Of a stretch of DNA of 23,124 nt, positions 15,998 to 21,479 are shown piece by piece. Source of the stretch: a virus; IMG/VR virus record IMGVR_UViG_3300044645_000808, positions 1-23,124 of that record; one strand, 5' to 3'. The notes beneath the pieces were generated by a model. The model was not told the DNA's origin, did not search any database, and saw only the letters and a program-made list of their open reading frames with translations. Positions within the stretch are counted from its first letter, which is position 1. Each line of letters begins with the position of its first letter. The position numbers and the translations under genes were made by a program.

Positions 15998-16250
15998 TTT
16001 GTAAAAATATAACTCAGTTTTGTAAAAAGTGTAAAAACCTATTTTGAACTTTTTACACACTTTTTTACAACCCTAACTATCTATATATTATATATTTATC
16101 TTTATTTTGTAAAAATGTAAATATATATATATAAAAGTCCTGGTATTCATTTTGTAAAAAGTTAATATAGCAAACTTGAAAAACGTTTTTACAATTTACA
16201 CTTTTAGTTAACTCTCTCATAATCAAATGTATTTTTGTAAATTTGTAAAT
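15998..16250. repeat. Iteron-like TTTGTAAAAA repeats in an AT-rich gene-free region
   Basis: Between the helicase and nuclease genes lie about 290 bases without a gene. TTTGTAAAAA occurs exactly at 15998-16007, 16019-16028, 16106-16115 and 16151-16160. Inverted copies TTTTTACAA occur at 16062-16070 and 16186-16194, and shorter TTTGTAAAT twice at 16234-16250, reaching the helicase stop. Several copies are followed by a second half GTGTAAA or TGTAAA. The 16019-16037 and 16050-16070 segments form a large imperfect inverted repeat. An AT-only tract (about 16079-16099 and 16119-16134) lies between copies. This is the build of an iteron replication origin or of a multi-site operator region. Confidence 0.7.
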
Positions 16251-17776
16251 TAGAATGGTAAGCCTTTTACAACTTCAGGGGCAAAATTGATCTCAATATC
16301 CATTTCCTCTTTAACAAAATTTTCACGTTTAAAAATATATGGCGTACCTATTTTTGAATTTTCACCCTCTAAAGGATAGTACCTTTGATTTTTTCCGATA
16401 GGCACTTTCATGTCATTTTTTAACACTTTATGTATATATGGATTATTATAATTATTGTTTTTTTCAAACCATATCTTTTTAATATCCATAGCTGTCATCT
16501 TAAATTCATTCATATTTCGATCCTGCATAAAAGCATCTTCAATAAGCATCTCAAGTTCTTTACGTAGTGTGTTTTTAGATTCATCCATAACAACCTCAAG
16601 ATATTGCGTTCTAATCTCTTCCTCAGTAAAAATCATCCTTGATTTACTCATATCTATATCAGGTAGTTGCTGTAGGTAGCGTAGAAAGTAAGGTATTTCG
16701 GATGTCATTTTTTGCTCTATATCAGTAATTCTGTGCTTAATAACACCAACTCTACGAACCCAAAAACGTATCTCTTCCTCATCAATACGCATAAAATCAT
16801 GCTCTCGGTTAGTTCCGATTATTATCTTACCAAAGAATGGCACTTTATACTGAGATACGAACTTTTGATTAACTGCCATGCTCTTTTGAGTTGCTATTGC
16901 TTTGATTTTCTCAACGCTTGATTGTTTCTCTAATACGGTTTCATCAATGGCTATTATGTTTTTAGTAGCATAAAGATGATTGAAAGTACCTGTTAATTCA
17001 TCCGGCGCTATGTTAACGTAATTATCTCCGAAAAGAATCTCTAAAAAGTTTAGGAATGTAGTTTTACCCGTTTGCCTTTCAGTAGATGCAAGCACTAAAA
17101 CAGGTAGTATCTGTTGTGGCATCTCATACATTACCTTCATATATTTATATCCGAGTTCTATCTGAGAACCGAAAATGTGATTTAGTAATAAATCTATATG
17201 TTTAAATTCTCCATCATGTTCAGCAGGTGAATGAGGGAATTTAGCATAAAGATTATACATAGAGTTTTGAAACTCAGTATAGTTTACATTGTCAGGAATA
17301 ATAGTGAAGTCATCAAAACGTGGTATTTCTCGAACCATTGCTTTACCATAATCATCCTTTATCTCCTCTTTTTTCCAATTTTTAATAGCTTTAACATTAA
17401 CACCGTAACGATTAGTTTTGTAATTAATTTTAAAATAATCGCATCCAACCCTAATGAAAGGTATTTGTTTTTTTAAAATTCTAAATTCAACGTAATTCAT
17501 AGCATCACGATGATTACCGTCAAATTTGCAAATGGTAAGTATTTCAAATTTAGTGTATAAATAATCATCTTTATTTATCTGTACCATACCGGATTCAAGT
17601 AATCTATAACTATTACCTTCATCTACACAATAAGCTTCAATAGATGATCTAAGTTCAAATCCATCAACATCGTGGAATATTTGTACAAAGTCTCCATATC
17701 TATTAAAAAAATCAACTGCATTCATGTATGGCTTTAGTTTAGCCATATCATCTTGTTTAAAAAATTTAGTACTCAT
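16250..17776 (-). CDS. SF3-like replicative helicase (D5/primase-helicase type)
   Basis: The 508-residue protein has an ATPase core at about 225-345: Walker A STERQTGKTT (Lys238), Walker B NIIAIDET (about 273-280), a sensor-like strand KIIIGTN (about 317-323) and an arginine pair after FWVRRVG (341-342). This fits superfamily 3 / D5-like phage helicases (DUF5906 type) that unwind DNA from a replication origin. The C-terminal segment (about 400-508) probably holds a winged-helix DNA-binding part. Its start overlaps the primase stop by four bases, so primase and helicase are co-translated. The iteron-like region follows its stop. Confidence 0.88.
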   Translation of the reverse strand: MSTKFFKQDDMAKLKPYMNAVDFFNRYGDFVQIFHDVDGFELRSSIEAYCVDEGNSYRLLESGMVQINKDDYLYTKFEILTICKFDGNHRDAMNYVEFRILKKQIPFIRVGCDYFKINYKTNRYGVNVKAIKNWKKEEIKDDYGKAMVREIPRFDDFTIIPDNVNYTEFQNSMYNLYAKFPHSPAEHDGEFKHIDLLLNHIFGSQIELGYKYMKVMYEMPQQILPVLVLASTERQTGKTTFLNFLEILFGDNYVNIAPDELTGTFNHLYATKNIIAIDETVLEKQSSVEKIKAIATQKSMAVNQKFVSQYKVPFFGKIIIGTNREHDFMRIDEEEIRFWVRRVGVIKHRITDIEQKMTSEIPYFLRYLQQLPDIDMSKSRMIFTEEEIRTQYLEVVMDESKNTLRKELEMLIEDAFMQDRNMNEFKMTAMDIKKIWFEKNNNYNNPYIHKVLKNDMKVPIGKNQRYYPLEGENSKIGTPYIFKRENFVKEEMDIEINFAPEVVKGLPF

Positions 17777-18657
17777 AATGTTAGTGGTTTTTGTTTTCCT
17801 TTATTTATCATGTCTTTGGCAGTTTTTATATATCCGTTTACCTTAGATTTTTGATTGAGATAGTTATTGTTAACTATTTCTTTAATTATAATATCTTCAG
17901 CTTCCTGTTCAGATAGGTAATTATTAGCAACGTATCCGCCAAGAGCATAACTTATAGCTCTGAGAGGTGGATGTCCATAATCTACTATTTTTGACATTGC
18001 GCTGTTTACTAATTTTGCCACTTTATCCACCTGTTTATTTTGATATATTCTAATAGTTGTAACTTTTGGAGGCTGAGGAGGTGCAATATACTGTTTATTC
18101 CATTCGATTGCATCCGGTCTATATAATAAATTTTCATCATCAGAAATAAAAAGAGGTAGTACACAGTTCTGAGGTGCTTTATCAAATCCCTTATATTTAG
18201 ATGCTTCCTGTTCAAATCCTTTATAATAAAGTTTATATTCATCAGGTGAATTTACCACAGGAATACGAAGCAAGGCACGAACTCCTAACCTGGAAGATGA
18301 TAACCAACAGGCAATTATTTCAGGATATTCATTAAAAAGAAAATCCCTAAAATCAATAGCATATTGTTCAGATTCTAATTTATCAAAGTCAAGAGGTGCA
18401 AGTCCTGTAAATGATACGATGCTTTCGTAGTTTCTATATGTACAGTTTACCGCAGGTGTAAAAAAATAAAGTTTCTGTTTTAGATATGCTTTTGTATCTT
18501 CATCTTTATTACCTGCTGCAAGTCTAATCTGTTCTAAAATTTCTTTAATGTGTGGCTTTGGATGTTTAATAGCTTCAATCATCCTAAGCATAGAAAGGTT
18601 GCCTAATGGTACAACCTCTTTAATGCTACTTCCATAATATTGAAAAATTGGATTCAT
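17773..18657 (-). CDS. BT4734/VirE-N-type primase
   Basis: With ATG at 18657 the protein has 294 residues. The open frame continues to an ATG at 18678, but that start lies inside a terminator hairpin and its T-run, so the ATG at 18657 is preferred. A block GLAPLDFDKL (Asp90, Asp92 in this numbering) gives the paired acidic residues of an archaeo-eukaryotic primase-like domain, followed by LSSSRLGVRALLRIP, as in BT4734-like / VirE N-terminal domains of Bacteroidetes mobile elements. A helical C-terminal part (SYALGGYVANNYLSEQEAED) resembles primase C-terminal domains. It makes primers for the helicase encoded directly downstream. Expression probably depends on the structured leader. Confidence 0.82.
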   Translation of the reverse strand: MNPIFQYYGSSIKEVVPLGNLSMLRMIEAIKHPKPHIKEILEQIRLAAGNKDEDTKAYLKQKLYFFTPAVNCTYRNYESIVSFTGLAPLDFDKLESEQYAIDFRDFLFNEYPEIIACWLSSSRLGVRALLRIPVVNSPDEYKLYYKGFEQEASKYKGFDKAPQNCVLPLFISDDENLLYRPDAIEWNKQYIAPPQPPKVTTIRIYQNKQVDKVAKLVNSAMSKIVDYGHPPLRAISYALGGYVANNYLSEQEAEDIIIKEIVNNNYLNQKSKVNGYIKTAKDMINKGKQKPLTL

Positions 18658-18665
18658 AAATAAAT

Positions 18666-18715
18666 AAAAAACCCCCATTCAGTACGCAGCCACTACTCTG
18701 CGAGCCAAATGAGGG
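18666..18715 (-). terminator. Intrinsic terminator / attenuator just before the primase start
   Basis: On the minus strand CCCTCATT (18715-18708) pairs with AATGGGGG (18679-18672) over 8 bp including one G-U pair. It encloses the 5-bp stem CGCAG/CTGCG, and six T (18671-18666) follow at once. The G-U pair is a C-A mismatch on the opposite strand, and no T-run follows on that strand, so it acts leftward. The primase ATG lies 8 bases after the T-run. Confidence 0.65.
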
Positions 18716-18766
18716 CGATATAATTTCGGTTATTATCCTGTAGTGGAGGATATAAATGTAAAGAAC
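18666..18766 (-). ncRNA. Structured leader RNA with complementary hairpin loops before the primase
   Basis: Leftward transcription from the promoter at 18801-18772 would give a leader of about 100 bases. Hairpin A: a 6-bp stem TATCCT/AGGATA with the 7-base loop CCACTAC (18752-18734). Hairpin B: inner stem CGCAG/CTGCG with the loop AGTAGTGG (18702-18685). Loop A is perfectly complementary to GTAGTGG in loop B over seven bases, allowing a kissing interaction within one RNA or between copies. Hairpin B is part of an intrinsic terminator. No known riboswitch or ribozyme core was recognised. The transcript start is an estimate from the -7 box. Confidence 0.5.
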
Positions 18767-18771
18767 GAGTG

Positions 18772-18802
18772 CAAATATAGGCAATATTTATATAAAAACA
18801 AT
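18772..18802 (-). promoter_or_regulatory. Leftward promoter of the primase operon
   Basis: TATATTTG (18779-18772, full match to TAnnTTTG) is preceded after 19 bases by ATTG (18802-18799). It lies in the divergent intergenic region and points at the structured leader and primase. Spacing and box quality fit a Bacteroidetes sigma-factor promoter. Confidence 0.6.
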
Positions 18803-18884: not shown

Positions 18885-19124
18885 ATGAATCAAATAATAG
18901 AAGAAAATTACAAAGTAACTGTTAAACGTGGATTAATAACAGAAAATACTAAAATGTCAGATTTTTTAAATAAAATAGATGAGGAAGTAAAAGAGTTTAA
19001 AGATAGTTTAGAGTTTAATGAATTAGCTGATATTATACTTGTATGTTTAAATATAGCAAAGCATTATAATATAGATATAGAAAATCAATTAATAAATAAT
19101 ATAAATAAAAACAAAAACAGGTAA
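18885..19124 (+). CDS. MazG-like nucleotide pyrophosphohydrolase (short form)
   Basis: The 79-residue protein shows the MazG metal-binding signature: E-x-x-E in IDEEVKEFKDS (Glu34, Glu37), then FNELADIILVCLN (Glu46, Asp49), followed by a helix and KNKNR, the usual basic end. MazG-fold enzymes hydrolyse nucleoside triphosphates to monophosphates; phage copies may clean the nucleotide pool or lower alarmone levels. The protein is short but keeps the four acidic residues. It starts the AT-rich rightward cassette and is followed two bases later by the ParB-like gene. The substrate cannot be told from sequence. Confidence 0.75.
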   Translation: MNQIIEENYKVTVKRGLITENTKMSDFLNKIDEEVKEFKDSLEFNELADIILVCLNIAKHYNIDIENQLINNINKNKNR

Positions 19125-19126
19125 TT

Positions 19127-20269
19127 ATGGAAAATCAAATTTTAGAGATTAAAACAAAAATTAGTAATTTATTAGAAGATAAAGATTTTTCTAATAAAGT
19201 TAATTTAATTAATGAATTAAGAGAATTTATTCATGAATTAAGCCCATTTAAAAATGAACCAGTTGATTTTGTAAAGTGGATAATATCAGATGATGTTACA
19301 AGTAATGATTATAATCCAAATAAAGTAGCTCCACCTGAAATGGAATTATTAGAAATTTCTATTATGAATGATGGATATACTCAACCTATAGTAACTTGGG
19401 AAAATGAAAATAAAAATAAGATTGAAGTTATTGATGGATTCCATAGAAACAGAGTAGGTAAAGAATCTAAAATTGTTAGACAAAGAATAAATGGGTATTT
19501 ACCTATTGTTAATATAAGAAAAGAACAAACTGGTAAAAATGATAGAATTGCATCTACAATAAGACACAACAGAGCAAGAGGTAAACATCAAATAGATGCT
19601 ATGAGTGAAATTGTATTAGAATTAAAAGCCAGGAATTGGAAAAATGAAAGAATTGCTAAAGAATTAGGAATGGATGAAGAGGAAATTTTAAGATTATGCC
19701 AAATAACTGGATTATCTGATATTTTTAAAGATGAAGATTTTAGTAAATCATGGGAATCATCAGATTCAATACATTCATATGATCCAATTGATGATAATAT
19801 AAGTGATGAAGATTTTGAAAATTATAGGACAGTTAATACTTCTGATCCTGATAGAATATTTCATACTTTTGAACATTGGGAATGTCATAAAGCCGGATTT
19901 TACGCCTCTAAAAAAGATGGAATGACAGCAGAGCAATGTGAGCAGTCTTATGCAGATTTTTTATCAAATGATGAATTATTTAGAAAAGGTTTAGAAGGTG
20001 TAATAAAAGATTGGAAAAATTCATGTGAACATTATTTAACTAATAAAGCAATGAATAGAATTGCATGGTTAGGACAAGCTGCTATGTGTTATTCTACTGG
20101 TGTACCTTCTAAGTTCTGTTCAGGATTTAATAGATTACTTCCTTTAGAACAACAAATAGCAAATGAAACTGCACTTGAATATTTAAATAAATGGATGATT
20201 TTAAATAATAGAAGTGAAGTAACAATGGAAGAGGCTTTATCAATTGGAAGACAAGTAAATATTTATTAA
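19127..20269 (+). CDS. ParB/Srx-domain protein, IbrB-like, with C-terminal extension
   Basis: The 380-residue protein has a ParB-like N-terminal domain: ISIMNDGYTQPIVTW, then VIDGFHRNRVGKE (about 101-113) and TIRHNRARGKHQIDAMSEI (about 144-162), followed by a helix-turn-helix stretch (NWKNERIAKELGMDEEEILR). This is the order seen in ParB/sulfiredoxin-fold proteins and in IbrB. A second domain (about 240-350: FEHWECHKAGFYA, SCEHYLTNKAMNRIAWLGQA) is not in short IbrB proteins; I have no function for it. One base separates the stop from the PAPS-reductase-like gene, so they are an operon pair as ibrB-ibrA. Sequence is very AT-rich with mostly AGA for Arg. Confidence 0.78.
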   Translation: MENQILEIKTKISNLLEDKDFSNKVNLINELREFIHELSPFKNEPVDFVKWIISDDVTSNDYNPNKVAPPEMELLEISIMNDGYTQPIVTWENENKNKIEVIDGFHRNRVGKESKIVRQRINGYLPIVNIRKEQTGKNDRIASTIRHNRARGKHQIDAMSEIVLELKARNWKNERIAKELGMDEEEILRLCQITGLSDIFKDEDFSKSWESSDSIHSYDPIDDNISDEDFENYRTVNTSDPDRIFHTFEHWECHKAGFYASKKDGMTAEQCEQSYADFLSNDELFRKGLEGVIKDWKNSCEHYLTNKAMNRIAWLGQAAMCYSTGVPSKFCSGFNRLLPLEQQIANETALEYLNKWMILNNRSEVTMEEALSIGRQVNIY

Positions 20270-20270
20270 T

Positions 20271-21479
20271 ATGGCAACTAAAGTATATCAAAACAAAAAT
20301 GTATTAAATGCAAGCATAGATAGAATATCTTATGTATTTGATAATTTCGAGAGAATTTACATTTCATTCTCAGGTGGAAAAGATAGTTCAGTTATGTCTC
20401 ATTTAGTATTAAATGAAGCACGTAAAAGAAAAGTTAAAGTAGGATTTTTAATAATTGATTTAGAAGCTCAATATGATGATACAATAAGTCATATTGAACA
20501 CATGATTGATTTATATTCTGATGTAATAGATTTACATTGGGTATGTGGAGAATTATTATTAAGAAATGCTGTTAGCAATTATGAACCAAGATGGATTTGT
20601 TGGGATGAATCTAAAAAAGATATTTGGGTTAGAGATAAACCAAAAAATGCAAGTAATTTAAATCAATATGATTTTTATATTCCAAAAATGGAATTTGAAG
20701 AATTTATGGTATTATTTGGAGAGTGGTATTCTCAAGGTAAAAAAACTGCAGGGTTTATTGGTATAAGAGCTGATGAAAGTTTACATAGATATAGAGCTAT
20801 AACATCACGCAAAGATGGATTAATGTATGATAATTTAAAATGGACTACAAGAATATCATCTAATTTATTTAATGTATATCCAATTTATGATTGGAAAACT
20901 GAAGATATTTGGATATTTCATGGAAAGTATAGACACCTCCCACATAATAAGATTTATGATAAAATGATGATGGCAGGCGTTAAAATTAGTCAACAAAGAT
21001 TATGTCAACCGTATGGAGATGATCAAAGGCGTGGATTATGGTTATATCATATTTTAGAACCTGAAACTTGGTATAAAATTGTAGCGAGAGTAAATGGTGT
21101 AAACTCAGGTGCTTTGTATATTCAAGAAAATGGTAATATGACTGGATATAATAAAATATATAAGCCTGAAGGTCATACTTGGAAGAGTTTCTGTAATTTA
21201 TTATTACAAACTATGCCTAAAAAAACAAGTGATCATTATAGAGAAAGATTTGTTAAATTTATTAAAGGATGGCAAGATAGAGGTTATAAGGTTATACCTG
21301 ATGAAGCGCCGGAAGATTTAGAATCTAAATGTTGGGTTCCATCCTGGAGGAGAATGTGTAAAGTTATTTTAAGAAATGATTATTGGTGTAAAGGATTAGG
21401 ACAAACACAACCAAAATCAGATGCTTATATTAAATTTAAAGAAATAAAGCATAAAAGATCCTTAGAATCAAAACTTTAA
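20271..21479 (+). CDS. PAPS-reductase-family protein (IbrA-like, DUF3440 type)
   Basis: The 402-residue protein has the PP-loop ATP pyrophosphatase motif SGGKDSS (residues 34-40) after a short strand, and IIDLEAQYDDTISHIE, then GIRADESLHRYRAI (substrate-site region) and YPIYDWKTEDIWIF, typical of the phosphoadenosine phosphosulfate reductase family. A C-terminal part of about 170 residues (KISQQRLCQPYGDDQRRG onward) matches the build of IbrA / DUF3440 proteins. PP-loop enzymes of this group activate a substrate by adenylation; DndC of phosphorothioate DNA modification is a relative. Here the partner is the ParB-like gene just upstream. Real substrate is unknown; DNA or nucleotide modification is an inference. 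Confidence 0.85.
   Translation: MATKVYQNKNVLNASIDRISYVFDNFERIYISFSGGKDSSVMSHLVLNEARKRKVKVGFLIIDLEAQYDDTISHIEHMIDLYSDVIDLHWVCGELLLRNAVSNYEPRWICWDESKKDIWVRDKPKNASNLNQYDFYIPKMEFEEFMVLFGEWYSQGKKTAGFIGIRADESLHRYRAITSRKDGLMYDNLKWTTRISSNLFNVYPIYDWKTEDIWIFHGKYRHLPHNKIYDKMMMAGVKISQQRLCQPYGDDQRRGLWLYHILEPETWYKIVARVNGVNSGALYIQENGNMTGYNKIYKPEGHTWKSFCNLLLQTMPKKTSDHYRERFVKFIKGWQDRGYKVIPDEAPEDLESKCWVPSWRRMCKVILRNDYWCKGLGQTQPKSDAYIKFKEIKHKRSLESKL

Follow-up and report, generated by a model that had tools for sequence, protein, structure and literature searches.

The CI immunity RNA of the temperate satellite P4 is a processed RNA that acts in trans, with early termination of the Rho type. In ColE1-type kissing RNAs and in the plasmid attenuators of pT181 and pIP501, the partner of the leader loop is an antisense RNA made from the other strand. 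The put elements of HK022 form promoter-near two-hairpin phage leaders, have a conserved sequence and govern the passage of terminators; to our knowledge, no loop-loop complementarity with a terminator has been described for them. In this study, we analysed a stretch of viral DNA of 23,124 nucleotides (the window), in which a short minus-strand leader with two hairpins precedes a primase-like gene (Table 1). As in the P4 replication-operon leader, complementary leader segments are found here in front of a primase-containing replication operon, with early termination predicted before the replication genes; however, the complementary strands lie within one short RNA, which has an intrinsic terminator. 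Fully paired loop-loop helices of 6-8 nt, leader attenuation of replication genes (predicted here) and loop diversification are shared with the ColE1, pT181 and pIP501 systems, but both loops are located on one strand, and no promoter for an antisense RNA was identified. The fluoride, preQ1 and ZTP riboswitches also combine a promoter-proximal leader, a pseudoknot and an intrinsic terminator; in these, however, the terminator arms face competition from the aptamer or pseudoknot, whereas here the arms are free and no conserved ligand core was seen. The multimers that phi29 pRNA forms on the packaging motor through intermolecular loop-loop contacts, brought up in an earlier note on this DNA, are an analogy only, as a leader position before many unrelated genes does not suggest packaging. 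A palindromic Bacteroidetes candidate RNA of ~109 bp, HMP2_4078, is located near D5 primase domains, and no intrinsic terminator is predicted for it (PMC8040213); it resembles the leader in its Bacteroidetes phage context, its size and the vicinity of primase domains, and it is set apart here by its published description, not by its sequence.

Table 1. Features of the leader and of the genes that follow it (minus strand of the window), with the corresponding leader of phage 11b
Feature	Position	Strand	Description	Basis
Promoter, predicted, Bacteroidota-type	18772..18801	-	TTG 18801-18799, 19-nt spacer, TATATTTG 18779-18772	sequence
Hairpin 1	18734..18752	-	UAUCCU[CCACUAC]AGGAUA; 6-bp stem, 7-nt loop CCACUAC 18746-18740	fold
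Linker	18717..18733	-	A/U-rich, 17 nt	sequence
Two-part terminator hairpin	18671..18716	-	12-bp outer stem, 2x2 internal loop, 5-bp inner stem	fold
Kissing strand GUAGUGG	18690..18696	-	7-bp kissing helix with CCACUAC 18740-18746	
U6 tract of terminator	18666..18671	-	first U can pair in the stem	sequence
First gene, PF08800 (BT4734-like/VirE N) primase-like protein	17776..18657	-	Pfam E=5e-12, PHROG 23402 E=3e-61	Pfam, PHROG
Second gene, DUF5906/VirE-like helicase-primase	16250..17776	-		Pfam
Phage 11b leader			predicted start just after TATATTTGC	

The earlier note had claimed that the loops of the two hairpins are complementary over 7 bases and that the second hairpin is an intrinsic terminator ending in U6, 8 bases before the primase ATG, and both claims are borne out by the minus-strand sequence and its fold. 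The RNA is predicted to start at about 18766, a position placed from the TTG-N19-TATATTTG promoter fit; the TTG -33 element is cited as established in Flavobacterium, and the RNA-seq of the FCL-2 host reported in the same paper was done without phage and gives no information on the leader (PMC8092290). From 18716 to 18671 the terminator reads GCCCUCAUUUGG-CU-CGCAG[AGUAGUGG]CUGCG-UA-CUGAAUGGGGGU, with AGUAGUGG as an 8-nt loop (18697-18690), and its fold has a value of -25.0 kcal/mol. It was not flagged by a generic terminator scan of the window, probably because the internal loop breaks a simple stem model. Between the U6 tract and the ATG at 18657 lie 8 bases (18665-18658), and this start codon is backed by an alignment of homologues. 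The longest open frame of the primase begins further upstream, at an ATG at 18678 inside the terminator stem (18655-18678, minus strand); as the homologues favour 18657, automatic annotation would misplace the start of this gene. No ATG is present in the window between the predicted RNA start and the terminator, where a leader-peptide attenuator would have a short conserved ORF. When the 121-nt leader was folded, it outdid 197 of 200 shuffled versions (z = -2.9), with the other 3 being as good. Among 20,000 dinucleotide-shuffled versions of the 50-nt leader, 0.7% contained a 7-mer complementary to the terminator loop, and 0.025% (P ~0.00025) had it within a hairpin loop with a closing stem of at least 5 bp. 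In a 97%-identical relative, L006, the leader differs by one base and the TATATTTG box is kept, although the two sequences have diverged upstream of the box.

Leaders of this kind were defined by a promoter box, a 5' strand able to form at least 6 bp with the terminator loop, a strong terminator and a start codon within about 45 nt, and all of these (promoter box, loop complement, strong terminator, nearby start codon) are found at 18801-18655 of the window. A loose detector was rejected as too permissive (57 matches versus 43 in shuffled sequence), and a strict one was used instead, which asks for a strong terminator, a hairpin 1 of at least 4 bp, a loop-loop helix of at least 6 bp and a linker of 6-55. 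Over 1.65 Mb the strict detector gave 41 matches, compared with 6.95 in shuffled controls. Contigs of phages with the primase accounted for 36 matches (5.3 expected), 31 of them with promoter box and ATG, and ~0.68 Mb of Bacteroidota chromosomes for 8 (9.5 expected), of which none has both features. The set of ten cultured phages yielded 7 matches against 2.75 expected; the three with promoter and ATG map to a single locus each in Flavobacterium phage 11b and FCL-2, and there were none in crAss001 and phi38:1 (first 50 kb each), B40-8, FPSV-S1, lotta8-2, phi12:1, P12024S or Chlorobi phage CV-1-33. The layout itself recurs in the cultured Flavobacterium phages 11b, FCL-2 and FCV-1. We did not count as proof the uncertain cases, namely some single matches lacking a promoter or ATG (e.g. 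L064 and L133) as well as L083 and L087, whose loops are weak. In a scan for promoter, terminator and ATG, kissing leaders ranked at the top, with ~30 out of 295 clusters reaching p<=0.02, compared with 6 expected. A model of the A4 subfamily, from which the kiss and the window had been left out, recovered L018 with E=4e-4, the L006 leader with 0.015 and the window leader with 0.057. Model R1, which covers one subfamily and therefore carries low weight, found nothing at E<=0.05 in 148 Bacteroidota genomes; the sole weak cellular match, L179, is a perfect hairpin of the ordinary kind and has no kissing loops. Searching phage records at the DNA level gave nothing useful with either the leader or the primase region, and the exact loop patterns occur in IMG/VR only in the three near-identical contigs. 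The architecture is invisible to sequence search because it is mainly the complementarity that is conserved.

Strong evidence comes from the covariance search in relatives that the earlier note had proposed, as the loop pairing is kept by compensatory change both in the A4 subfamily and in the Flavobacterium-phage groups. Three loop pairs (GGUCUCAC/GUGAGACC, GAUUCCAC/GUGGAAUC and GGUUCGAC/GUCGAACC) are found among fourteen leaders that have the backbone TGTTTC[loop]GAAACATAA...GGCC in common. In their kissing helix all 112 of 112 cells are paired and four of the eight base pairs have changed on both sides; the remaining helices covary too, and sliding the partner abolishes the signal. The structure as a whole outdoes 500 of 500 shuffles in cells paired and in covariation score, although the 14 leaders are kin and the shuffle counts are therefore not probabilities. 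The stem that matches hairpin 1 has likewise changed on both sides in subfamily A. At one locus of the F. columnare phages the pair is CATCCAC/GTGGATG in FCL-2, GTAGAGAG/CTCTCTAC in FCV-1 and GTAGAGA/TCTCTAC in FCOV-S2, and the metagenomic relative L226 carries GTGGAACG/CGTTCCAC on the FCV-1 backbone. Phage 11b and its relatives have CGGGCAGG/CCTGCCCG (11b) or GTAGAG/CTCTAC (L231) at the equivalent place, and one contig, L230, contains three leaders. For the class, then, the loop complementarity is not due to chance. Since the close relatives of the window have identical loops, the covariation holds for the class and not within the window's own subgroup.

About 35 loop pairs were observed, with up to three different pairs per phage, in a list that was assembled partly by eye. 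The pairing strand is usually the loop of the 5' hairpin and sometimes lies in the linker, as in some members (L113, L018 and L158), with a helix of 6-9 bp and, in the relatives found with the strict detector, a linker of 10-34 nt. Among primase upstream regions with leader-like gaps, L018 shows the same layout with the loops GTAGGAG/CTCCTAC, and in L038 an equivalent leader with GATTCCAC/GTGGAATC precedes a small gene. Pairs with a linker strand near the VirE helicase are GATTCAC/GTGAATC, GATTGAC/GTCAATC and CTCTAAC/GTTAGAG, and L151 and L135 have a branched terminator in which an unpaired strand serves as the partner. The shared denominator of these variants is a terminator that is pseudoknotted to its own leader. 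In 22 of 26 distinct pairs the complementarity extends exactly as far as the loops do. One kissing strand starts with 5'-GU, often after an A, in 20 of 35 pairs compared with 4.7 (sd 2.0) when the letters are shuffled; this tendency may reflect a structural rule for loop-loop helices of this type. Leaders of a single phage differ in their loops (GGTGAGAG, GTAGGAG and CTCTAAC in L018; GGTCTCAC, GATTGAC and GTAGGAG in contig 3300042868_005237), which makes it unlikely that one shared RNA or protein reads the loop sequence. In the FCV-1 leader (L221 168-330, at ~36 kb in the record) the kissing loops are kept and the U-tract is displaced (CUUAACUUUUU); strict termination may thus not be the shared function. 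We also noted that the words GTGGAATC and GATTCCAC occupy swapped positions in L151 (4885-5050) and L029 (2198 onward), two leaders that are otherwise different, and that TGAGGGA/TCCCTCA and GGGCAG/CTGCCC likewise recur across different phage groups.

The predicted leader RNAs of the class are ~80-140 nt long and stand at the head of a phage transcription unit, with the start codon of its first gene 9-30 nt past the U-tract. Behind them are found genes for primase, VirE helicase, nuclease-like and DnaJ-like proteins and DNA methylases (PF00145, PF01555 and PF05063). In FCL-2 it is a Phg_2220_C protein, and in FCV-1 an HTH_36 protein is encoded by the second gene, both of which we take to be replication initiators. 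Leaders of type II precede, or lie just ahead of, the helicase-primase gene in L113, L124 and other relatives. A specific tie to the primase, as the earlier note had it, was not upheld: homologues of the primase are present in Cellulophaga and Flavobacterium phages, most of them are operon-internal without an adjacent leader, and the leader precedes many other genes, so that the association is incidental. The same note had held that homologues which keep the primase but lose both stems and the loop complementarity would speak against the element. At the primase gene this is the situation in most homologues; however, several such genomes have the element elsewhere. A family of 42-50-aa proteins (MKIFLVKSPSGK...) is often encoded directly behind a leader (L057 2304-2450, L078 2313-2459, L126 6435-6575 and others) and gave no match in phage records.

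We propose, with about even confidence, that the leader is a cis-acting gate that is off by default, that is a pseudoknotted promoter-proximal attenuator. The promoter would yield a short RNA ending in the strong intrinsic terminator before the first gene. Once the terminator loop has left the RNA polymerase, hairpin 1 would capture it and lock a compact pseudoknotted terminator, so that transcription would halt before the downstream genes; read-through would come about by chance leakage or through a phage or host factor that recognizes the shape. The promoter box, the terminator, the compensatory loop pairing, the recurrence in unrelated phages and the lack of a competing antiterminator pairing were all obtained by computation, and from here we infer that the RNA is made, that it terminates, in which direction the kiss acts and that a factor of this kind exists. 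In 33 curated leader clusters the upstream leader did not pair with either arm of the terminator beyond expectation (median p 0.68 and 0.50). A classical antiterminator is thus not apparent, and the pairing that excludes a terminator arm in riboswitches and classical attenuators was not found in these clusters; nor is there a conserved leader ORF in the A4 subfamily. It counts against the gate that the terminators are already very stable, so that the kiss is not needed for stability. The same strength of the terminators would suit a fairly unlikely alternative, namely that the short RNA is the actual product, a compact molecule shielded by its 5' hairpin, its 3' terminator and the kiss, with read-through being secondary. 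Hairpin 1 is at or near the predicted 5' end in most members, and the RNA is closed at both ends; however, a trans-acting RNA would need a conserved sequence, and only the kiss frame with its 5'-GU/AC-3' ends is seen across subfamilies. In addition, the members found abut a start codon, in a search that was not systematic for stand-alone copies.

Loop sequences that are swapped wholesale between relatives with the complementarity kept, as in specificity determinants, and that differ inside one phage would also be expected if terminated leaders exchanged loop partners with nascent leaders in trans, so that every operon would have its own copy-number or immunity signal, in the manner of P4 CI RNA or the kissing antisense RNAs of plasmids. 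Several of the downstream genes belong to replication modules. We regard this self-targeting as unlikely, as proximity favours the partner in cis, compensatory drift of a cis structure gives the same pattern, no antisense promoter was identified and leaders of the class are found before DNA methylase and nuclease-like genes as well. Its fuller form, a self-recognizing RNA lock private to each operon, in which leaders accumulate with gene dosage and the loop sets a copy-number or superinfection signal without an antisense gene, is doubtful. The conservation of the shape and the kiss-end motif but not of the loop sequence, and the presence of the same shape before several transcription units of one phage, would be consistent with a phage or host protein that reads the docked two-hairpin form and either blocks termination, in the manner of the processive antitermination by put, N or Q, or represses translation. 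We consider this quite unlikely: no candidate protein was identified, and the leaders showed neither a conserved bulge nor a conserved box comparable to those in put RNA or boxA/boxB. Finally, an ordinary terminator next to a chance hairpin with a coincidental loop match might be invoked for the window, given how often the 7-bp match alone turned up in shuffled leaders and that the initial pick came from the whole window. We think this highly improbable: for the class it is refuted by the covariation, the recurrence and the host control, and the model built from other phages recovers the window leader, if weakly.

The pseudoknotted attenuator that we favour looks like a real and so far undescribed class, namely kissing-loop terminator leaders of several Bacteroidota phage groups. 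Rfam 15 gave no match at the gathering score in the window, in 11 related loci or in 8 loci of the Flavobacterium-phage groups, and no description of such leaders was found in the open-access papers searched, where absence is not proof; the view that no known RNA family has this layout therefore stands. A permissive Rfam search returned only STnc390, a chance match reaching from the terminator into the gene. Taken singly, the kissing loop, the pseudoknot and the attenuator are known kinds of element, and it is their combination, with the complementarity kept and the loop sequence free across phage operons, that appears to be new. If the proposal is correct, several unrelated Bacteroidota phage groups, including cultured Flavobacterium phages, would gate replication and DNA-modification genes with one RNA architecture, which would represent a new type of promoter-proximal attenuator and provide an entry point to transcription timing in poorly studied phages.

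The genes on the other side of the leader in the window are divergent from it and on the plus strand. A 79-aa protein (18885-19124) has a weak match to phage pyrophosphatases (phrog_3301, E=3e-5) and is followed at 19127-21479 by a ParB-like protein and then a PAPS-reductase/DUF3440 protein, a pair that resembles the IbrB/IbrA pair of many phages; the PAPS-reductase/DUF3440 protein shares 65% identity with a Microcystis phage protein.
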